This document shows positions 27,665 through 38,020 of a stretch of 64,000 nt of DNA, in pieces; the first letter of the stretch is position 1, and each line of letters opens with the position of its first letter. The DNA comes from an uncultured Bacteroidales bacterium (GTDB taxonomy: Bacteria; Bacteroidota; Bacteroidia; Bacteroidales; Muribaculaceae). A program made the translations under genes and the position numbers. The notes below the pieces were generated by a model. The model made no database searches. It worked only from the letters and a program-made list of their open reading frames with translations, and had not been told where the DNA came from. Location of the stretch: contig CASENC010000048.1 in the NCBI GenBank assembly GCA_949289215.1, positions 1 to 64,000 of the forward strand, given 5' to 3'.

Positions 27665-27695
27665 TTGCGTTTAGTGGGTAAATTCTTTATTTTTG
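27665..27695 (+). promoter_or_regulatory. Promoter of the putative lanthipeptide operon
   Basis: -33 TTG (27665-27667), exactly 20 nt, -7 TATTTTTG (27688-27695). The ATG at 27718 is about 16 nt after the expected start. It is the only clear promoter for the genes 27718-37911 and is divergent from the one at 27558-27590. Confidence 0.7.
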
Positions 27696-27717: not shown

Positions 27718-30381
27718 ATGAAAAATGTTTTTTCGATATTAATTGCGATGGTGGCAGGTCTTTCTGTTTTTGCGCAAAATATTGCCGATACTTTGGGCTT
27801 GCGGCTCGAAGAGCAGTATTATGAGTATCCGCAGGAGAAAGTTCACTTGACCACCGACCGCAACCACTACATGGGGGGCGACACGATATGGTTCCGTGGA
27901 TTCGTTGTGAGTTCGGCCACGCACGAGCCGGTGTCGGTGAGCAAGTATCTTTACGTGGAGCTGCGGACACCTTATAACACTGTTGACCAGCGCATCAAGG
28001 TGATTGAGCGCGATGGGGTGTATGCCGGGTATGTTCCTCTCGATATGCGGGTGCCGGAGGGGGACTACACGCTTGTTGCATACACCAACTTCATGAACAG
28101 CGCGGGGGAGGCGTATTTCTTCAAAAAACCGGTTAACATACGCAACGCCTATTCGCTTCGTATGGACTTGTTGTCGCAGTTCGAATGGGATGACGGCGGC
28201 GGGCGGCTTGTGTGCCGCATCGACTACCGCGACCGTACCACGGGCGAGGAGCGCGAACGGAAGTTCACCTACCGCACGATAAAGGATGCCGACTGGCGGC
28301 CGAGCTGGCGCAGGAGCGGTACTGAGACGGTGAAGCTCGACCGCGAGGAGTACATGGCGGGGTGGCTGCTGGTGATGTGCGACGACTATGCGAAGTACAT
28401 AAGGTTGCCCAAGAACGAGAGCGAATTCGATGTCACGTTCCACCCCGAAGGTGGCTACTTGGTTCCCGGCGAGGAGTGCCGCGTTGCGTTCAAGGCTATA
28501 GACGGCTACGGCGACGGCATTGAGGTGCAGGGCCGCGTGGTTGATTCGAGTAATAACGAGGTCGTTAAATTTAAGAGTCTGCACGGCGGGATGGGGGTGC
28601 TGACGTTCACTCCACGCCTTGGCGAGGCATACCGCGCGGAATGCGTGGTTCGTGACAGCCTGTCGGCATCGTTCGACCTGCCGGCGGTTAACGGCAGTGC
28701 GGCTGTGGTGTCGGCCGACCTGCGCGGCGACAGCGTGATAGACCTTCGGGTCAAGGGTCGTTGCCCCGGCGATGCGATAGTTGCGATACAAGAACGGGGG
28801 CTGCTAGTGTATGCCGGTAGGCTTGGCGACCGCATGGAAGCGAGCATTGGTTGCAGCGACTTGCAGAGCGGCGTGGTGCAGGTGCTGCTGCTTGACGGCG
28901 GGCTGAATGCCTTGAGCGAGCGGTTGTTGTTTGTCCGTGCCGCCGACACCTGCACTGCGGTGGTAGCACCTGTGCGACCGACCTATGGCAACCGTGATAA
29001 GGTGATACTGAACTTGCGGCTTGACGGTTACGCCGATGCGGAGGGCGACGTAGCCGTGTCGGTTACCGACCGCCTGTTTGGCGATGAGACCGGTGGCGTC
29101 AACATACTGTCGAACCTGCTGTTGCAATCAGAATTGAGGGGATATATAGAAAATCCTGCGTATTACTTTGAAGCCGATGACAGTGTGCGTCGAGCTGCGC
29201 TCGATGCGCTGCTTTTGACGCAGGGTTGGCGACGGTATGACATACCGGCCTCGCTACGTGGTGAGTATCAATATCCGACTGCATCGATAGAGAAGAGTCA
29301 GCAGATAAGCGGCACAGTGAAGAGCCTGTGGCGCGGTAAGCCGCTTGCCGATGCCACGGTGAAGATACTATCGAAGAAGTTAGGCTTTGCCCGTGCAGTG
29401 AAGACCGATAGCGTGGGGCGATTCTGTTTTGAAGGCTTTGATAACAGTGATGGTGCTACTTATGAGTTGGAAGCCGTGAACAAGAAAAGCCGCGCCGAGG
29501 GCAGTGTGGAAATAAATCCTGAATTGTTTCCTTCTGTAAATCCGATAAATGTGACCGCAGGCGATATTGAAACTATGGCAACTTCAGAAGGAGATAACGA
29601 TTTGTCGGCTGAATTAATGCGCTTGTCGGCATCGGGAGTTTACAATGTAATTCTTAATGAAATTGTGATTGAGGGTGCCAAAGTTGCTGAGAGGGAAAAG
29701 TCGGTTATGGATGTTGTGGCACTGAAGTCGCTTGACAGCGATTATATGGAGGGGAAAGGATATACTTCGCTTGAAGAGGCCATTCGTGAAATTCCGGGTG
29801 TCAGGATTACCGGCAATAACGATATTGTATATCGTAACAAGAAAGTGACGGTAGTCATTGACAACGTGCCATATTATAGCGTAAGGCAGAAAGCCGGATC
29901 AACGACATTTGGGTTTGTTGATGACAACAGTGACGGATTGTTGTACAGCGAAGGGTTGTTGACCGAAATCGAATCGTTATATCCTTTTGATATGATAGAG
30001 CGTGTTGACTTTTTGCGGCCTGAAGTTGCTGTAATCTATGGAAATTGCGCCGGTGGTGCATTAGCAATAACTTTGAAAGATGGAACCCAAAAAGTCGATG
30101 AGAAGAGCCAAGGTATTAAATATTTCCGTCCGCTTGGCTACCAGCAACCTGCTGAGTTTTACAGTCCCAAGTATGCCAAGGATTTTGGCAACAACTCTGA
30201 TGGCGGCGACCTGCGCAGCACGGTTTACTGGAACCCCAACGTGAAGATTGATGCCGAGGGCAATGCCATGGTGGAATTTTATGCCAACGACAACCGTAAC
30301 ACCCGTTATGATGTGGTGGTGGAAGGAATAACTCGCGACGGTGAATTGGTGCGAACTACTACGCAAATCCGAAAACGATAA
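27718..30381 (+). CDS. Exported macroglobulin/TonB-plug-like protein, paralog 1
   Basis: 887 residues. Signal peptide ends GLSVFAQ (about 20). An MG2-like domain (about 38-145: EKVHLTTDRNHYMGGDTIWF ... EGDYTLVAYTNFMNSAGE) is followed by further beta domains, a second macroglobulin-like unit near YGNRDKVILNLRL, and a carboxypeptidase-regulatory-like domain (about 525-590). A TonB-plug-like domain follows (about 655-795: LEEAIREIPGVRITGNN, VTVVIDNVPYY) but there is no barrel. The last 80 residues (STVYWNPNVKIDAEGNAMV) resemble the C-terminal unit of such proteins. Predicted periplasmic or surface protein. First gene of the lanthipeptide-like operon. Paralog of the 30957 product; the first 590 residues are strikingly rich in G+C at the DNA level compared with the plug part. 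Confidence 0.82.
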   Translation: MKNVFSILIAMVAGLSVFAQNIADTLGLRLEEQYYEYPQEKVHLTTDRNHYMGGDTIWFRGFVVSSATHEPVSVSKYLYVELRTPYNTVDQRIKVIERDGVYAGYVPLDMRVPEGDYTLVAYTNFMNSAGEAYFFKKPVNIRNAYSLRMDLLSQFEWDDGGGRLVCRIDYRDRTTGEERERKFTYRTIKDADWRPSWRRSGTETVKLDREEYMAGWLLVMCDDYAKYIRLPKNESEFDVTFHPEGGYLVPGEECRVAFKAIDGYGDGIEVQGRVVDSSNNEVVKFKSLHGGMGVLTFTPRLGEAYRAECVVRDSLSASFDLPAVNGSAAVVSADLRGDSVIDLRVKGRCPGDAIVAIQERGLLVYAGRLGDRMEASIGCSDLQSGVVQVLLLDGGLNALSERLLFVRAADTCTAVVAPVRPTYGNRDKVILNLRLDGYADAEGDVAVSVTDRLFGDETGGVNILSNLLLQSELRGYIENPAYYFEADDSVRRAALDALLLTQGWRRYDIPASLRGEYQYPTASIEKSQQISGTVKSLWRGKPLADATVKILSKKLGFARAVKTDSVGRFCFEGFDNSDGATYELEAVNKKSRAEGSVEINPELFPSVNPINVTAGDIETMATSEGDNDLSAELMRLSASGVYNVILNEIVIEGAKVAEREKSVMDVVALKSLDSDYMEGKGYTSLEEAIREIPGVRITGNNDIVYRNKKVTVVIDNVPYYSVRQKAGSTTFGFVDDNSDGLLYSEGLLTEIESLYPFDMIERVDFLRPEVAVIYGNCAGGALAITLKDGTQKVDEKSQGIKYFRPLGYQQPAEFYSPKYAKDFGNNSDGGDLRSTVYWNPNVKIDAEGNAMVEFYANDNRNTRYDVVVEGITRDGELVRTTTQIRKR

Positions 30382-30501
30382 AGTTTGAAAAAAAATAAGC
30401 ATTGCTGTTAAATATGTGCAAATGCAATATTTATTTGCTGTAAAATGTTGCGGTTTTGTGTGAAATCCATATTTTGGAAACAAACATTAAAATGTAGTAT
30501 T

Positions 30502-30945
30502 ATGAAAAAAATCAATAAAAATGACTTGTCGTTGAATAAAGAAACTGTTTCATCTATAAGTGATAATGTCAATTCTGATATGCCTCAAACAAGGCAAGTC
30601 ACCAATTGTTTAGATTGCCGTACTATTTATACTTGCCAAACTAAATGTGAGCAGTTTTCATGCGTAGGCTGTGAAGAGGCAACTTTTCAAAGTAACTGTA
30701 TGTGTTTGAGCGACAATATGCCATGTGAAAGTGATGGATGCAATCCCACGGCATCTCAAGCTCTGTGTTGTGAGCTGCCGCCGGATGTGACAAATAATTG
30801 CGAATATAATTCGCTTAAAGTAGATGAATGTCAAGACACGAATGCATGTACAATTGCTCCCGTAGAAACCATGGCTGCCGGAGAAAATCCTTGTTTGACG
30901 GGAGATGAGTGTCCTGTGATTAGGACTGTTAATTGTGACCAATAA
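30502..30945 (+). CDS. Putative class I lanthipeptide precursor, Cys-rich and acidic
   Basis: 147 residues from ATG 30502 (MKKINKNDLSLNKETVSS). The start resembles Bacteroidota class I lanthipeptide leaders (LSLNKETVSSISD). Residues 34-147 hold 18 Cys (36, 39, 45, 49, 54, 57, 66, 68, 75, 80, 89, 90, 100, 110, 116, 131, 137, 145) and 18 Ser/Thr. Many Ser/Thr sit 1-4 residues before a Cys (TNC, TC, TKC, SC, SNC, TNNC), fitting lanthionine rings. That region has about 18 Asp/Glu against 4 Lys/Arg. There is no Gly-Gly cleavage site. The frame extends upstream to 30445, but those codons are hydrophobic, not leader-like. It lies 11 nt before paralog 2, with lanC and lanB genes downstream. A disulfide-rich or metal-binding protein is the alternative. 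Confidence 0.75.
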   Translation: MKKINKNDLSLNKETVSSISDNVNSDMPQTRQVTNCLDCRTIYTCQTKCEQFSCVGCEEATFQSNCMCLSDNMPCESDGCNPTASQALCCELPPDVTNNCEYNSLKVDECQDTNACTIAPVETMAAGENPCLTGDECPVIRTVNCDQ

Positions 30946-30956
30946 AAAGGTTTAAT

Positions 30957-33695
30957 ATGAAAAAGATATTTACAATATTGGCAGCGGTGTCGATGGTGTT
31001 TGCTGTTTTTGCGCAGGGGCTATCCGATACGTTGCGAATGCGGCTCGAAAAGCAGTATTACGAGTATCCGCAGGAGAAGGTTCACATGACGACCGACCGC
31101 AACCATTATATGGGAGGCGATACTATATGGTTCCGTGGGTTCGTTGTGAGTTCGGCCACGCATGAGCCTGTTTCGGTGAGCAAATATCTGTATGTTGAGC
31201 TGCGAACACCTTACAACACAGTTGACCAACGTATCAAGGTGATTGAGCGTGACGGGGTTTATGCCGGGTATGTTCCGCTTGATATGCGGGTGCCAGAGGG
31301 TGACTACACGCTTGTGGCGTACACCAACTTCATGAACAGCGCAGGGGAGGCATATTTTTTCAAGAAGCCGGTGAACATACGCAACGCCTATTCGCTGCGT
31401 ATGGACTTGTCGTCGCAGTTCGAGTGGGAGGATGGCGGCGAACGGCTTGTGTGCCGCATCGACTACCGCGACCGTGTCACAGGCGAGGAGCGTGAGCGCA
31501 AGTTCACCTACCGCACGATAAAGGATGGAGACTGGCGTGAGAGCTGGCGTAAGAGTGGTACGGAGACGGTGAAGCTCGATCGCGAGGAGTACATGTCGGG
31601 CTGGTTGCTTGTGATGTGCGACGACTATGCCAAGTACATAAGATTGCCCAAGAACGAGGGTGGGTTTGATGTCACGTTCCACCCCGAGGGCGGCTACTTG
31701 GTGCCCGGGGAGGAGTGCCGTGTTGCGTTCAAGGCGATAGACAGTTACGGCGACGGGATTGCAGTGCATGGCCGTGTGATTGATTCAAAAAATAACGAAG
31801 TAGCTATATTTGAGAGCCTGCACGGTGGTATGGGAGTGCTGACGTTCACGCCGCGCCTTGGTGAGGCATACCGTGCTGAATGTGTTGCCCGTGACAGCCT
31901 GACGGCATTGTTTGCCTTGCCGTTGGTGAATGACAGTGCGGTAGTCGTGTCGGCCGACTTGTGCGGTGACGGCATAATAGACCTCCGGGTCAAGGGTCGC
32001 TGCCCCGGTGATGCTATAATTGCGATACAGGAACGAGGACTGCTGGTGTATGCCGGCAGTCTTGACGGCCGCAGGGAAGCGAGCATCGACTGTGGCGGCT
32101 TACAAAGCGGAGTGGTTCAGGTGCTTCTTCTCGACGGCAGTTTGAACGCGCTGAGCGAGCGGTTGTTGTTTGTCAGGGCATCCGACACCGACAGTTGCAC
32201 TGCGACAGTCGCGCCGGCGAGGCCGACCTATGGCAACCGGGACAAGGTTATACTGAACCTGCGGCTTGACGGTTATACCAATGCCGAGGGGGATGTTGCC
32301 GTATCGGTTACCGACCGTTTGTTTGGCGATGAGACGGGCGGCGGCAACATACTGTCGAATCTGTTGCTGCAATCGGAGTTGCGTGGTTATATAGAAAATC
32401 CGGCGTATTATTTTGAGGCGAATGACAGCGCACGGCGAGCCGCGCTCGATGCGCTGCTGCTGACGCAAGGATGGCGGCGTTACGACATACCGGCCTCGCT
32501 GCGCGGCGAGTACCAGTACCCGACTGCAGCGATAGAGAAGAGCCAGCAGATAAGCGGCACGGTCAAGAGCCTGTGGCGCGGCAAGCCGCTTGCCGATGCC
32601 TCGGTGAAGATACTGTCGAAGAAGTTGGGCTTTGCCCGTGCGGTGAAGACCGACAGCGTGGGCAGGTTCTACTTCAAGGGCTTTGACAACGCAGATGGTG
32701 CAACTTATCAGTTGGAGGCCGTGAACAAGAATGGCAACACCGAGAGCAACGTGGAGATAGATTATGACATATATCCGGTCATAGAACCGATAGATGGCAT
32801 TGTAGATTATAAATCGACTGATAATGAAGATGTTGTTAATAATGATGACTCGGTTGAACAAATGCGGCTTTCGGCATCGGGCGTTTATAATATAATATTA
32901 AACGAGCTTGTTGTGGAGGGGCATGCTCCACAATTTGGAGACAAATCCATAACCGAAATAATGGCAAGCAAGACATTCGACGGGGATTATTTTGAAAAAG
33001 AAGGCGTTACCACTTTAGAAGAAATAATAAGGAAATTGCCAGGCGTGATAGTAAAGGGCAACGGAGATGTGGTTTACCGTAACAGGCCGGTAATGTTCTT
33101 GGTCGATGAAATGGTGTTCTCCCTGGCGGGAACTTCCGATGCTGCCGACATAGTTGCGAATTACGGTGAAAACCGCCGCCGCCGTGCCCGTGCTGGCGGT
33201 GGGGCAGTGGCCGAGGCATCATTTGCGGCGGCCATGCGGGCACTTTCTTATCCCACCTCCTCTCGTGGTATGTTGAGGGAGGTGGAAGATGCAATACCCT
33301 TCGACATGATAAAGCAGGTATCATTCTTGCCGCCGAATGCCACCTTGACATTCTCAATGGAAGGCAATGCGGCTATTTCCATAGACCTGAAGGAGGGTGC
33401 TGAAATAGGAGACGAGAAACCTTACGGCATGAAATATATCACTCCGCTCGGCTACCAGCAGCCTGCCGAGTTCTACAGCCCCAAGTATGCCAAGGATTTC
33501 GGCAACAGCTCCGACGGAGGCGACCTGCGTAGCACGGTTTATTGGAATCCCGACGTGAAGATTGATGCCGACGGCAATGCCATGGTGGAATTTTATGCCA
33601 ATGACAACCGTAACACCCGTTACGATGTGGTGGTGGAGGGTGTGACCCGTGGCGGAGAATTGGTGCAAGCCACCACGCAAATACGTAAACGGTAA
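30957..33695 (+). CDS. Exported macroglobulin/TonB-plug-like protein, paralog 2
   Basis: 912 residues with the same layout as the 27718 product. By eye residues 22-587 are nearly the same protein sequence as paralog 1, though the DNA differs at many synonymous sites. Residues about 590-825 are diverged: plug-like LEEIIRKLPGVIVKGNGDVVY and MFLVDEMVF, plus a unique basic Arg/Ala/Gly insert (NRRRRARAGGGAVAEASFAA). From residue 832 (GYQQPAEFYSPKYAKDFG) to the end the two are again almost identical. Signal peptide ends VFAVFAQ. It starts 11 nt after the precursor stop and ends 12 nt before lanC, so it is fixed in the operon. Function unknown; export, binding or immunity are guesses. Confidence 0.82.
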   Translation: MKKIFTILAAVSMVFAVFAQGLSDTLRMRLEKQYYEYPQEKVHMTTDRNHYMGGDTIWFRGFVVSSATHEPVSVSKYLYVELRTPYNTVDQRIKVIERDGVYAGYVPLDMRVPEGDYTLVAYTNFMNSAGEAYFFKKPVNIRNAYSLRMDLSSQFEWEDGGERLVCRIDYRDRVTGEERERKFTYRTIKDGDWRESWRKSGTETVKLDREEYMSGWLLVMCDDYAKYIRLPKNEGGFDVTFHPEGGYLVPGEECRVAFKAIDSYGDGIAVHGRVIDSKNNEVAIFESLHGGMGVLTFTPRLGEAYRAECVARDSLTALFALPLVNDSAVVVSADLCGDGIIDLRVKGRCPGDAIIAIQERGLLVYAGSLDGRREASIDCGGLQSGVVQVLLLDGSLNALSERLLFVRASDTDSCTATVAPARPTYGNRDKVILNLRLDGYTNAEGDVAVSVTDRLFGDETGGGNILSNLLLQSELRGYIENPAYYFEANDSARRAALDALLLTQGWRRYDIPASLRGEYQYPTAAIEKSQQISGTVKSLWRGKPLADASVKILSKKLGFARAVKTDSVGRFYFKGFDNADGATYQLEAVNKNGNTESNVEIDYDIYPVIEPIDGIVDYKSTDNEDVVNNDDSVEQMRLSASGVYNIILNELVVEGHAPQFGDKSITEIMASKTFDGDYFEKEGVTTLEEIIRKLPGVIVKGNGDVVYRNRPVMFLVDEMVFSLAGTSDAADIVANYGENRRRRARAGGGAVAEASFAAAMRALSYPTSSRGMLREVEDAIPFDMIKQVSFLPPNATLTFSMEGNAAISIDLKEGAEIGDEKPYGMKYITPLGYQQPAEFYSPKYAKDFGNSSDGGDLRSTVYWNPDVKIDADGNAMVEFYANDNRNTRYDVVVEGVTRGGELVQATTQIRKR

Positions 33696-33707
33696 AAATG
33701 TGACTCA

Positions 33708-34892
33708 ATGGATGGCATTCGCAATGATATATTGCACGACTTGGCCGGGCAAGTTGCCGGCAGGTTGCAAGCAAAACGGTATTGCAATTACAGTTTGCTT
33801 GGCAGCGACTTCGGGGAAATAATGTTCTTGTATTATTATTCCAAAATTGAAGAACGGTATGAGGCCATAGCCGATGGGTTGCTTGACAAGATGTTTGCCT
33901 CGATTGGCAGCCTGCCCGTTTGGGGAACATATTGTTCAGGATTTGCCGGAATGGGAGTCGGCCTGTCGATATTGGAGGCTGATGGTTTCATTGAAGGGGT
34001 AAGCGAAGCTTTGGCTGAGCTTGACAGCCGCATCGATGCTACATTTGATGAATTTATTGGCGAAGGCAAGATTGATTTCCTGCATGGGTATTCAGGCTAT
34101 GCGCTATATTATTTGCAGCGGTATGCAAATGATGCGGTTTATGCCAAAAGCCGAATAATAGTAATGGTCGATGCATTGCGGAGGCAGGCTATTGAGCAGG
34201 GTGATGCCATAAAATGGCAGTTCAGTGACGAGCCTGAAAAAAAGTTCAACATATCGCTGTCGCATGGAATGTCGAGCGTAGTTGTAGTGCTTTGCAAAAT
34301 CCTCAATTCAATAGCTTTGGATACAGAAGAACGGGAACAGGTAACGTGGTTGATAACCGGTGCCGTGAATTACATTCTCATGCAGCGCATCGACCAAGAA
34401 ATGCATGGCAGTTGGTTTGTATCAACTTCCTTGGAATGCGAGCCGCAAGTGCGGCGCAGCCGCCTTGGCTGGTGCTATGGCGACCTTGGTGTGGCTGTTG
34501 CACTGCTTGATGCAGCCGAGGCGTTGCATCGCGACGATTGGCGGCAAACGGCTATGTCGGTACTTGAATATGCCGCGATCAGCCGACGCAATCCTGCCAT
34601 GAATGCCGTGTATGACGCAGGTTTGTGCCACGGAGCCACGGGAATAGCGCAGGTGTTTAAAACCATGTCGGAACGCACATCGTCTCCAGTTTTGGCCAAT
34701 ACTTGGAAGTATTGGGATAATGTGGTGATTAAAAACGTAAAAAGAGTAGAAGGAAAATATGAATACCGTTTTTACAATTCACTTGAAAATCGGTTTGAAC
34801 ATAGGGTCGGCTTGCTCGATGGCAGTGCAGGAGTGGGTATGTATTTGCTCAAAACAGGGAATGTATTGCCACGGTTGTTGATAATAGATTAG
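33708..34892 (+). CDS. lanC: LanC-like lanthionine synthetase cyclase
   Basis: 394 residues, alpha/alpha-barrel zinc enzyme that adds Cys thiols to dehydrated Ser/Thr. The typical repeated glycine motifs are GTYCSGFAGMGVGL, DFLHGYSGYALYYL, SLSHGMSSVVVVL (catalytic His 186), RLGWCYGDLGVAVALL (zinc ligand Cys 256) and AGLCHGATGIAQVF (zinc ligands Cys 307 and His 308). All zinc ligands and the acid/base His are present, so activity is likely. Located between paralog 2 (12 nt) and the dehydratase gene (11 nt). The predicted substrate is the dehydrated precursor encoded at 30502. Confidence 0.92.
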   Translation: MDGIRNDILHDLAGQVAGRLQAKRYCNYSLLGSDFGEIMFLYYYSKIEERYEAIADGLLDKMFASIGSLPVWGTYCSGFAGMGVGLSILEADGFIEGVSEALAELDSRIDATFDEFIGEGKIDFLHGYSGYALYYLQRYANDAVYAKSRIIVMVDALRRQAIEQGDAIKWQFSDEPEKKFNISLSHGMSSVVVVLCKILNSIALDTEEREQVTWLITGAVNYILMQRIDQEMHGSWFVSTSLECEPQVRRSRLGWCYGDLGVAVALLDAAEALHRDDWRQTAMSVLEYAAISRRNPAMNAVYDAGLCHGATGIAQVFKTMSERTSSPVLANTWKYWDNVVIKNVKRVEGKYEYRFYNSLENRFEHRVGLLDGSAGVGMYLLKTGNVLPRLLIID

Positions 34893-34903
34893 TATAGTGT
34901 ACC

Positions 34904-37069
34904 ATGAAATATGCTTATACCGACCGTATTGTGATGCGAGTTCCTCGTTTTCCCGAAAATTATATCCACAGGGCATTGGCCGATGAAAATTTTTTCGAGT
35001 TGGTGATTGCAAGCGACGATTTCAAGGCGGCAGTTTACCTTGCATCGCCATCGTTGAGCGCAGAGCATGAAAAATACCTTTCCGGGCGATTGTCGGCAAA
35101 AGATAGTGCAAGATTGAAAAACGCATTGCTGAAATACCTTGGCCGTATGTCAACACGTTGCACCCCATTTGCGACCTTTGCCGCGTGTGCCGCCGTGGAA
35201 GTCGGCAATGAAGATAGCATAGTGCTTTCGCAGGAAGTAAAAACCTGCTCGCGCCCCGATATGCTTTACTTGTGTTCGTTGTCACAGGTATTGCAAGTGA
35301 AAATGAGGCGCAGCCTTCGCTACCGTGCAAATTCCACACTTTACCGCATTGGCGGCAGTGTGAGGTATGTGTCGTGCAGGTATTTGCCAAATGGGCGTTC
35401 GTATTCCATTGAGCAGGTCAAAAACTCGGGGTTGCTTGCTTTTGTGCTGAAATTGTGCCAAAATGGATATGTTGGCTATGGTGAAATAGTTAAAAGTGTA
35501 ATCGGCAATTATGATGCAGGTGAAAAGGAAATAGAGCATTATGTTGATGACTTGATTGACAATCAGTTGATTGTAGGCGAAATAGAGCCATTTGTCACGG
35601 GTGATGATTATCTTTTGTTCTTGCAGGCCAATGTTGGTGCGGAGTTTAAGGCCGATATTGATGCAATAGCCGATGCCGTTGCTGCAATCGACAAATGCGA
35701 AGGTGTGGCGACGTATGCAAAGTGCTATGATGAAATAGCCATTATGCTTGGCAAGTATGGCATAAAATGCGACAAGAAATATGTGGTACAGACCGATTCG
35801 TTCAGGCCGCTAAAACATGGTATTGTTTCAAAGCAGATTACCGACCAGCTTGGCGAATGCATGACGCTGATGGCCAAAATAACCTCACGACACGAAGTTG
35901 CCAATATTGTGGATTTCTGTCACAGGTTTGAACAGCGTTACGAGGCTCGCGAAGTGGGGTTGCTTGAGGCTTTGGATCCCGATGTGGGCATAGGGTACAT
36001 CGTCAATAACGACCGCATTCCGAATCCTTTGATTGCAGGGTTGCGCCTGCCACAGGCACAGCAACGGCAAATGGGGCAACTGTCATTGACCCCGATAGTG
36101 AAAATTCTGTTGCAGAAAATAATGGATTTCAACGCTGAAACAGACAATGCCATAGAATTGACCGATGACGATGTGCGTGGGCTTGGTGCCGACTTTGGCG
36201 ACCTGCCATTGTCTATGGCGGCGTTTTTCAGGGTTGTAGGTAAAAATGTCGATGGTACATACAGGCTTGCCGATGTGCATTTCTCGGGAGCATCGGCTGC
36301 CAATATGCTGAGCCGTTTTGCATACGAAGAAACCATAAGACCGATAGTGCAAACTATTGCCCAAAGGGAAGAGGCTGCCGTGAATGGTGTCATAGTCGCT
36401 GAGATTGCCCATATATCGGAGTCACGTACCGGCAACATACTTTTTCGCCCACATATCAGGGATTATGAAATAACCTATCTTACCGGCAGTACACTTGATG
36501 ATGAACACGTGATACCGGCGAGCGACTTGCTAGTGTCGGTGAAAGGACGGAAGGTGGTGCTACGGTCGCGGAGACTGCAAAAGGAGATTATTCCACGGTT
36601 AACGTCAGCTCATAACTACAAGGGTAAAACCACTCCATTGTATCGTTTTCTATGTGATTTGCAAAACCAATCGGGCAGGGCATCGCTATATTTCAGCTGG
36701 GGTGGACTTGAGGCTGTGTATGACTATCTGCCTTGTGTCATATATAAACAAAATATTTTGTCTCCTGCGAGGTGGACTTTGGTAAAAGAGAAGTTCATGG
36801 GGAAGAGGACGGCATCGGTCGATATGGATAAAGTGCGGTCGTGGAGGGCTGCCAAGCGGTTGCCGAGGGAGGTTAATCTTGTCGTGGGTGATAACAAGCT
36901 GTATATCGACCTTGAAAACGTCACGAGTGTCAGCTTGTTGGCCGCGGAGGTGTCGAAGTTAGGCAAATTTGTGCTTGAGGAATATTTTCCTTGCGAGGAT
37001 TATGTGGTTGATGAACAGGGAAACTGTTATGCAAATGAATTCGTAATGCCATACGTGAAAATACCATGA
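34904..37069 (+). CDS. LanB-type dehydratase, glutamylation (N-terminal) part
   Basis: 721 residues covering the lantibiotic dehydratase N-terminal region only. It uses glutamyl-tRNA to glutamylate Ser/Thr of the precursor. Landmarks: YLGRMSTRCTPFATFAACAAVEVG near residue 90, SLTPIVKILLQKI, SESRTGNILFRPHIRDYEI, RLTSAHNYKGKTTPLYRFLCDLQ with the RFLCDLQ signature, and a C-terminal PREVNLVVGDNKLYIDLEN. The C-terminal elimination domain of full NisB-like enzymes is absent and is encoded by the next gene, whose ATG overlaps this stop by 4 nt. This is the split-LanB layout known for pinensin-type and thiopeptide-type clusters. Confidence 0.92.
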   Translation: MKYAYTDRIVMRVPRFPENYIHRALADENFFELVIASDDFKAAVYLASPSLSAEHEKYLSGRLSAKDSARLKNALLKYLGRMSTRCTPFATFAACAAVEVGNEDSIVLSQEVKTCSRPDMLYLCSLSQVLQVKMRRSLRYRANSTLYRIGGSVRYVSCRYLPNGRSYSIEQVKNSGLLAFVLKLCQNGYVGYGEIVKSVIGNYDAGEKEIEHYVDDLIDNQLIVGEIEPFVTGDDYLLFLQANVGAEFKADIDAIADAVAAIDKCEGVATYAKCYDEIAIMLGKYGIKCDKKYVVQTDSFRPLKHGIVSKQITDQLGECMTLMAKITSRHEVANIVDFCHRFEQRYEAREVGLLEALDPDVGIGYIVNNDRIPNPLIAGLRLPQAQQRQMGQLSLTPIVKILLQKIMDFNAETDNAIELTDDDVRGLGADFGDLPLSMAAFFRVVGKNVDGTYRLADVHFSGASAANMLSRFAYEETIRPIVQTIAQREEAAVNGVIVAEIAHISESRTGNILFRPHIRDYEITYLTGSTLDDEHVIPASDLLVSVKGRKVVLRSRRLQKEIIPRLTSAHNYKGKTTPLYRFLCDLQNQSGRASLYFSWGGLEAVYDYLPCVIYKQNILSPARWTLVKEKFMGKRTASVDMDKVRSWRAAKRLPREVNLVVGDNKLYIDLENVTSVSLLAAEVSKLGKFVLEEYFPCEDYVVDEQGNCYANEFVMPYVKIP

Positions 37070-37911
37070 AAGTGAAACGAAATTTTTATCCCGGTGATGA
37101 GTGGCTGTATTTCAAGATATATGGCGGCATAAAGACTTGCGATGACTTGGTGTGCGGCAAATTATATTCGTTGATGAATCGCCTAAAGCGTGAAGGATAC
37201 GTAAGCCAATGGTTCTTTGTTCGTTATAGCGATCCTGACTTTCATATAAGGCTAAGGTTGCGGTTAGTTTCGGATGACTCTTTCGGGAAAGTCGTGCGTG
37301 CGGTGAATAAGTTGTTAAGGCCGATGTGCGACAGTAGTGTATTGCACAAGTTTGTAATTGACACTTATTGCAGGGAAATTGAGCGATATGGCGAAAATGT
37401 TATGCAGTTGACAGAGGACTTGTTTTGCATCGATAGCGAGTGTGTATGTGCTGTTTTGCACAAAATGAGTGGAATGTCGCCCGATTATAGGTGGATTTTG
37501 GCATTTGTTTCAGTTGATGGCTTTTTGTCGGCTTTAGGGCTTGGTGTGAATGAAAAATTAGAACTCATTAGCAAACTGTCTGCCTCTTACCGTGCAGAAT
37601 TTGGCTATAATGAACACAATGGCAAACAACTTAATGATATGTATCGCAGCCGCCGTGATGTGATAGTGAAGGTGTTGCATGGTGTTGATAGTGCTTTTAC
37701 GACGATTGTTCCATATTTCGAGCGGCGTAACTGGTTTGTCGCGTCAAAAACCAAAGGAAAGGTTGCTGCGCTGAATGTTGCATCAATAGTTCATATGATG
37801 ATGAACAGACACTTTGCGAGCCAGAACCGTGTGAATGAATTGTTGTTATATGATTTTTTGAAACGGTTTTACCGTAGCGAAATAGCCCGTGGTGAGGTCG
37901 AGAAATGTTAG
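37066..37911 (+). CDS. LanB elimination-domain protein (thiopeptide-type bacteriocin biosynthesis domain)
   Basis: 281 residues. Family start KVKRNFYPGDEWLYFKIY, then GIKTCDDLVCGKLYSLMNRL, QWFFVRYSDPDFHIRLRLRL, YCREIERYG and a helical C-terminus ending SIVHMMMNRHFASQNRVNELLLYDFL, all typical of standalone Lant_dehydr_C-type proteins. It removes glutamate to leave dehydro amino acids, completing the LanB reaction. Translationally coupled to the glutamylation gene (ATGA overlap at 37066-37069). Last gene of the operon; only a weak hairpin (AAAATCG / CGATTTT, 37963-37987) follows. Confidence 0.9.
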   Translation: MKVKRNFYPGDEWLYFKIYGGIKTCDDLVCGKLYSLMNRLKREGYVSQWFFVRYSDPDFHIRLRLRLVSDDSFGKVVRAVNKLLRPMCDSSVLHKFVIDTYCREIERYGENVMQLTEDLFCIDSECVCAVLHKMSGMSPDYRWILAFVSVDGFLSALGLGVNEKLELISKLSASYRAEFGYNEHNGKQLNDMYRSRRDVIVKVLHGVDSAFTTIVPYFERRNWFVASKTKGKVAALNVASIVHMMMNRHFASQNRVNELLLYDFLKRFYRSEIARGEVEKC

Positions 37912-37986: not shown

Positions 37987-38020
37987 TTTATGTGGCGGTG
38001 TGCATATGCTGCCACATAAA
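37987..38020 (+). promoter_or_regulatory. 5'-terminal stem-loop in the ABC-F leader
   Basis: Perfect 10-bp stem TTTATGTGGC (37987-37996) / GCCACATAAA (38011-38020); the loop contains the palindrome GCATATGC. No T tract follows, so it is not an intrinsic terminator on either strand; an mRNA-stabilising or regulatory leader is more likely. Confidence 0.5.

Follow-up and report, generated by a model that had tools for sequence, protein, structure and literature searches.

A split-LanB, class I lanthipeptide-type locus with a long acidic precursor and macroglobulin-like neighbours in a Muribaculaceae genome

The six-gene locus and its lanthipeptide enzymes

The subject of this study is a run of six genes for a putative class I lanthipeptide system, carried on a 64,000-nucleotide stretch of DNA (the window: assembly GCA_949289215.1, contig CASENC010000048.1, positions 1 to 64,000) from an uncultured Bacteroidales bacterium of the family Muribaculaceae. 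Six adjoining open reading frames (ORFs) on the plus strand encode LanC, a LanB split into two proteins, a Cys-rich LanA-like precursor and two large macroglobulin-like proteins, referred to here as MGP1 and MGP2. A prior reading of the sequence alone (the original prediction) had described six tightly spaced, co-directional genes, and they lie at the coordinates it gave, separated from MGP1 through to the LanB elimination part by 120, 11, 12, 11 and −4 base pairs (bp). The genes and the signals around them are as follows.

27665–27695, plus strand: promoter-like match of Bacteroides type, TTG-N20-TATTTTTG, 5' of the operon
27718–30381, plus strand: MGP1, macroglobulin-like protein of 887 residues, with MG2, CarboxypepD_reg and Plug (residues 669–780) matches; signal peptide by eye
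30502–30945, plus strand: LanA-like precursor of 147 residues with 18 Cys; leader DLSLNKETVSSI, core net charge −15
30957–33695, plus strand: MGP2, paralogue of MGP1 by sequence identity, 912 residues
33708–34892, plus strand: LanC cyclase, 394 residues (PF05147; aligned with NisC)
34904–37069, plus strand: LanB glutamylation part, 721 residues (PF04738; aligned with NisB)
37066–37911, plus strand: LanB elimination part, 281 residues (PF14028; aligned with NisB)
37987–38020, plus strand: terminator-like hairpin of 15 pairs, 3' of the last operon gene

Judged by homology, the window encodes class I lanthipeptide enzymes, namely a LanC and a split LanB with conserved catalytic residues. The assignment of these three genes holds up in profile searches against Pfam, in which LANC_like (PF05147, E = 8.1e-36), Lant_dehydr_N (PF04738, E = 6.1e-133) and Lant_dehydr_C (PF14028, E = 6.1e-60) all score far above their cut-offs. 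The LanC zinc ligands and LanB motifs that had been picked out by eye also fall into place. In LanC, SHG, WCYG and CHG align with NisC H212, C284 and C330/H331, which we take to be the zinc-ligand positions in NisC numbering. In the LanB glutamylation part, R81, R85, T87 and D119 align with NisB R83, R87, T89 and D121, and these residues are invariant in an alignment of five LanBs of the family; in the elimination part, the HIRLR and REIERYG motifs align with NisB R784/R786 and E823/R826, and a VHMMMNR motif is visible, the alignment stopping short of the region of NisB H961. The aligned NisB and NisC residues presumably play the catalytic roles that we assign to them. We also considered a pyridine synthase role for the small LanB part and rejected it because the elimination residues are kept.

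The promoter-like match at 27665–27695, in a form that we take to be the Bacteroides promoter consensus, is suggestive at most, since 10 such matches, at 9 places, are listed on the plus strand of the 64 kb; a σ70 promoter scan employed a model that does not cover Bacteroidales promoters. Within the 120-bp gap 5' of the precursor the pattern is present only as one-mismatch versions, and thus an internal promoter may lie there. Terminator-like hairpins in the region number 11 against 11.4 expected from shuffles, that is, no excess. The G+C content is 53% in the MGP genes and 39–47% in the Lan genes; because flanking genes span 44.5–54.1%, separate origins for the two sets are only a possibility. 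A plasmid search matched 66 records, all at less than 60% identity. The grouping of the genes is not a product of chance, since relatives also have the precursor together with the enzyme genes.

The precursor and the clade of loci that encode it

The interpretation that we consider moderately probable is that a split-LanB class I system, found in a Muribaculaceae-like clade, modifies a long, acidic, Cys-rich precursor and works with an exported protein encoded alongside. The precursor ORF opens at ATG 30445, 57 bases before position 30502; we set the start at ATG 30502 because the conserved leader begins there, and automatic annotation may yield a 166-residue precursor from the upstream ATG. 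By eye the protein has no signal peptide, and its leader is of the Bacteroidota class I type (LSLNKETVSSI). The 20 precursors compared are 92–180 residues long, with 10–22 Cys and core net charges of −5 to −27. In this set of related sequences, Ser/Thr residues are enriched over shuffles at −5 (z = 5.7), −3 (z = 3.2) and +3 (z = 8.6) relative to Cys, with weaker enrichment at −4 and +4 and depletion at −2, +1 and +6. Across 13 aligned core pairs, Cys is conserved in 316 of 347 cells, same-class conservation is 336/479 for Ser/Thr and 244/430 for Asp/Glu, and other residues are conserved in 406/1152, in a comparison whose aligner favours Cys and whose pairs overlap.

We surveyed 9 genomes of the genus, 149 of the family and 393 sampled from the order, and compared LanB loci among the best 80 of 142 relatives (10 precursor loci and 70 others). 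Within the genus, LanC is found in the window's own genome alone (1 of 9), and MGPs in 8. Six of the family genomes contain the LanB glutamylation part (LanB-N), five of them intact and one, G002, as a 96-position remnant. A profile built from ten precursors matches in seven family genomes, namely the five with intact LanB, G002 and G008, so that the precursor is present in 5/5 genomes with intact LanB as compared with 2/144 others. At the level of the order, as delimited and sampled here, 27 of the 393 genomes have LanB-N (the window's own included, some only partial), at odds with a 2023 survey which states that 1,136 Bacteroidales genomes contain no LanB dehydratase at all (PMC10352776). 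LanB genes are likewise present in the records of Odoribacter laneus YIT 12061 (L115), Dysgonomonas sp. HGC4 (L117) and Tannerella forsythia ATCC 43037 (L138), which contradict that statement.

In a tree of 51 hand-chosen LanB rows that leaves out the pinensin LanB, the 13 precursor-bearing loci form one clade (support 100/99), with Odoribacter laneus as sister. The members are the window, L105, L106, L107–L114, L116 and L166, with L103/L116 and L104/L166, whose contigs agree in length, each counted once; they include the close pairs L107/L108, L112/L116 and L105/L106, and by contig names L107 and L112 come from one metagenome-assembled genome (MAG). At least one precursor-like ORF is present at all 13 loci. 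The Cys-rich ORF that the original prediction had tied to the enzymes does recur with them, lying beside LanC and both LanB parts at 12/12 other clade loci, in the order LanC-LanBN-LanBC-precursor. A search for the window's own six-gene order had a different outcome: the order was not seen at any other locus examined, and no other examined locus has all five of the window's non-precursor genes.

The large exported proteins and their neighbourhoods

MGP1 and MGP2 had been labelled 'MG/plug' proteins. The first half of the label seems to stand at the level of fold, whereas MG2 (PF01835) scores below its cut-off of 32.8 bits in both proteins (25.9 bits in MGP1, 25.4 in MGP2). The second half applies to MGP1 alone: residues 669–780 match the plug of TonB-dependent receptors (PF07715) at 24.9 bits, just above the cut-off of 23.9, and no Plug match is listed for MGP2 at E up to 1. 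CarboxypepD_reg is above its cut-off of 32.3 bits in MGP1 (33.5) and below it in MGP2 (30.5). The description of these proteins as lacking barrels proved correct in that Pfam lists no β-barrel family for either, MGP1 ending at residue 887; on this ground we rejected the idea that the large proteins are TonB receptors.

A search of the Protein Data Bank with the MGP1 sequence returned no match at E up to 1. An AlphaFold model of MGP1 (ten sequences; mean pLDDT 62, with nearly all of residues 603–829 below 50) matches macroglobulins and complement proteins, including CD109, C5 and E. coli A2M, with a best E of 3.2e-19 and 260 matches at E ≤ 0.001. The TM-scores over the query are 0.12–0.31 in the 50 rows shown, which indicates similarity of single domains with no one superposable whole. 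On the strength of these modelled matches, and with TM-scores this low, the large proteins look macroglobulin-like by fold. MGP1 resembles the bacterial alpha-2-macroglobulins (ECAM) and complement C3/C5 in its modelled fold, and has a weak MG2 match; it differs from alpha-2-macroglobulins in its length of 887 residues, in those TM-scores, in its low-confidence plug-like segment and in the lack of a CxEQ thioester motif, which is found in neither MGP1 nor MGP2.

The two proteins are 76–94% identical to each other except at the plug-like segment (611–800, MGP1 numbering), where identity falls to 36–47%. In contrast, MGP2 and its G002 counterpart are 78–98% identical along the whole length; the tandem MGPs of G001 behave like the window pair, their identity falling to 54–56% at 661–800. 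Because the drop is confined to 611–800, the two copies appear to bear different modules on one frame.

The original prediction had also linked the enzymes to large exported neighbours, and this link survives in part. An MGP is present at 8/13 clade loci. It shares the strand of the Lan genes in the window, L107, L108, L114 and L116, whereas L105, L106 and L166 have it on the other strand, so that co-transcription with the Lan genes is excluded there; in L106 and L166 the MGP is truncated where the contig stops. MGPs are also common apart from LanB, occurring in 28/149 family genomes, 23 of which have no intact LanB. Other loci carry a different exported-type partner: FISUMP-like proteins occur at L108, L110–L114 and L116, and an MGP or a FISUMP-like protein lies beside the precursor at 12/13 loci, the contig of the thirteenth, L109, stopping 241 bp past the precursor. 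(Signal peptides and export of neighbours were called by eye throughout.) The FISUMP label reflects a scan of four proteins, two of which gave matches below cut-off and two no match, and a model of the FISUMP-like partner was poor (mean pLDDT 45.7) and hence left uninterpreted.

These observations bear on the possibility that the lanthipeptide module merely lies next to tandem surface-protein genes, so that the large proteins would be bystanders and co-transcription with them incidental. The frequency of MGPs without LanB, the opposite-strand loci, the differing partners and the G+C contrast noted above (against a flanking-gene range of 44.5–54.1%) fit such an account, as do G001 and G005, which keep tandem MGPs with only a frame-disrupted precursor between them. 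We nonetheless regard it as unlikely, because an MGP lies at the LanB locus in 5/5 family genomes with intact LanB, as compared with any MGP at all in 23/144 others, and because precursor and MGP stay adjacent even where enzymes do not. In G002 an intact precursor ORF and MGP2 are kept, although all that is left of LanC, LanB-N and the LanB elimination part (LanB-C) is a set of fused fragments; in G008 the contig ends inside the MGP that comes after the precursor; and precursor relics lie beside MGPs in G001, G005 and G523, the last retaining the end of a precursor. Moreover, in Sphingobacterium corticibacterium (L131:5989-9977) an MGP-like gene and the start of LanC share 4 bp, with LanB after them and a PCAT-like gene farther downstream.

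That the precursor/MGP neighbourhood outlasts the enzymes supports the association, and is also compatible with a role that does not require thioethers. Alternatively, the precursor-like protein could be unmodified and disulfide-rich, with the Lan enzymes acting on another substrate or vestigial. Such a protein would suit G002, as well as G520 (L213:2795-4852, G520:C38), where two Cys-rich precursor-like ORFs lie beside an MGP and the genome lacks LanB, the longer ORF having matched the precursor profile and yet not been recovered in the genome search. It is less easily squared with the lanthipeptide-type leader and missing signal peptide of the window precursor, with the retained catalytic residues or with the presence of the precursor in every family genome that has an intact LanB, and we judge it highly improbable.

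Some further neighbours recur or stand apart. A lipoprotein-like TPR protein lies upstream in nine related loci by eye, though not in the window; scanned at three loci, it gave only matches below cut-off and is weakly DUF6377-like in some relatives. A small exported-type protein precedes LanC, again by eye, in eight of nine related loci (with the TPR protein at L116:6505-8780, for example), and the window is without one. Another locus that resembles those for ribosomally synthesized and post-translationally modified peptides, L218:8554-15355 (G454:C23), also has an MGP-like gene next to it. The locus holds a partial LanC-like protein, which passes the cut-off at 32.2 bits, a small ORF containing GG, and a VKOR-thioredoxin protein whose C39-like start, at 21.2 bits, narrowly misses the C39 cut-off of 22.

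Export, proposed function and relation to known systems

A clustered C39-ABC exporter is usual in Bacteroidota class I loci but is not obligatory. The contrast that had been drawn between the window and exporter-bearing class I clusters is best regarded as a tendency: a PCAT-like exporter, recognised by profile or by a DCGxxCL motif, was found at 0/10 precursor loci (5 of them shorter than 18 kb) versus 39/70 other Bacteroidota LanB loci, and at 33/55 of those others with a span of 18 kb or more. A loose GG-precursor pattern occurs at 35/70 of the other loci and once in L116. Genome-wide, C39 was not found in 10/12 precursor-bearing genomes, several of them incomplete, in a search confined to C39-type exporters; nor was it found in the window's own genome, which is 85% complete. 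The same search was positive in 3/3 GG-type genomes used as controls.

We propose the following pathway, in which the enzymatic steps are deduced from homology and from the catalytic residues that are kept. The LanB glutamylation part would bind the short leader DLSLNKETVSSI and use Glu-tRNA to glutamylate Ser/Thr in the core; the elimination part, a protein of its own, would convert these to dehydroamino acids; and LanC would add Cys to them, building a (methyl)lanthionine ring array. The product would then exit the cytoplasm by a route encoded outside the cluster, as the loci have no C39-ABC exporter and none was found in most genomes searched. Outside, the peptide would act with a partner, which would be MGP1/MGP2 here and an MGP and/or a FISUMP-like lipoprotein in relatives.

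As to what the product does, many class I lanthipeptides are antimicrobial, and this one may likewise kill competitors, with the exported protein that is paired with it (MGP or lipoprotein) serving for immunity or docking. Precursors and exported-type partners alternate 1:1 in L116, whose four precursors are each followed by their own exported-type gene, and in L110 (two and two). Between G500 and G416, moreover, the nonsynonymous divergence (dN) of the precursor is 0.68 and that of LanB-N is 0.055, as might be expected of an arms race. With synonymous sites saturated in this pair, the fast change of the precursor beside slow enzymes hints at cassette replacement, as far as sequence divergence can tell; dN/dS was unusable in 3/4 pairs because of saturation, and is 0.53 for the precursor versus 0.16 for LanB-N in L110/L113. 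However, the cores are large and acidic, while the membrane or lipid II binders among lanthipeptides are, to our knowledge, cationic; no LanI- or LanFEG-type family is listed among the scanned neighbours; and, as noted, no C39-ABC exporter was found at the 10 loci checked. We therefore think an antimicrobial function possible but doubtful and, given large, acidic cores and partners of surface type, consider it more likely that the product has an interaction role at the surface or after secretion than that it is a small, cationic, membrane-active antibiotic.

Modification of the precursor by the split LanB and LanC, in partnership with an exported protein, must also be set against a number of observations that weigh the other way. 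Here the lanthipeptide-type system is known from its genes. The NCBIfam class I leader model NF038153 (L1a) gives the window precursor 15.7 bits, below the cut-off of 22, and of ten precursors scanned five match weakly and none above cut-off; GG directly follows the leader, by eye, in 2/20 precursors, both in L110. The kinship of the precursors also tempers the Ser/Thr statistics. At the sister locus of O. laneus the enzymes are present and no precursor was recognised at E up to 0.5. An MGP accompanies LanB at only 4/70 other LanB loci and at 0/27 other LanB regions of the order (11 of them shorter than 18 kb), and to this must be added the abundance of MGPs in genomes that have no intact LanB and the opposite-strand MGPs of three clade loci. 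G002 and G520, in which precursors outlive or lack LanB, point in the same direction. As for export, half of the exporter-free precursor loci are short, and C39 domains are present in G002 (102 bits) and G500 (43 bits).

A more specific and tentative version of the proposed partnership, which we offer as a speculation, is that lanthionine chemistry, instead of yielding a small antibiotic, serves to staple a long, acidic, Cys-rich protein, which becomes an element with many rings that is displayed on the surface or secreted. An exported scaffold dedicated to it, either an MGP or a FISUMP-like lipoprotein, would bind this element, and the rapidly changing cores would be matched to partner modules that vary too, such as the one at 611–800.

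Bacteroidetes lanthipeptides have reportedly been treated by Caetano et al. in 2020, a study that PMC10352776 cites. Set against what is known of pinensin clusters, the window differs in its precursor of 147 residues, which is acidic and has 18 Cys, in its locus without a C39-ABC exporter and in its macroglobulin- or FISUMP-like neighbours. An LxLxKx5L-type leader is reported for Bacteroidetes (PMC7268733), and the window has a leader of this type with Ile in its last place. Pinensin-type class I systems of Bacteroidota share with the window this type of leader, a LanC and a LanB whose glutamylation and elimination parts are separate proteins. The GG-leader loci of Bacteroidota (L118, L138 and L157) share the LanC-LanBN-LanBC gene families with the window and differ in having short GG precursors and PCAT and membrane-fusion-like genes, whereas in the window type GG is rare and no PCAT is in view. 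Lanthipeptide clusters have been reported in rumen MAGs, including those of Muribaculaceae (PMC8241843); as far as the available portion of that report goes, it describes no architecture, precursor or partners with which the window could be compared. A search of the open-licence literature found no paper joining an MG2 domain with a TonB plug, or Muribaculaceae with a lantibiotic dehydratase, and we make no claim that the architecture is unpublished.

These findings point to a distinct LanB clade with unusual long, acidic substrates and exported neighbours, and so to a form of a known peptide-modifying system that has been little described. If this is true, enzymes that form thioethers may have a part in the surface biology of gut bacteria.

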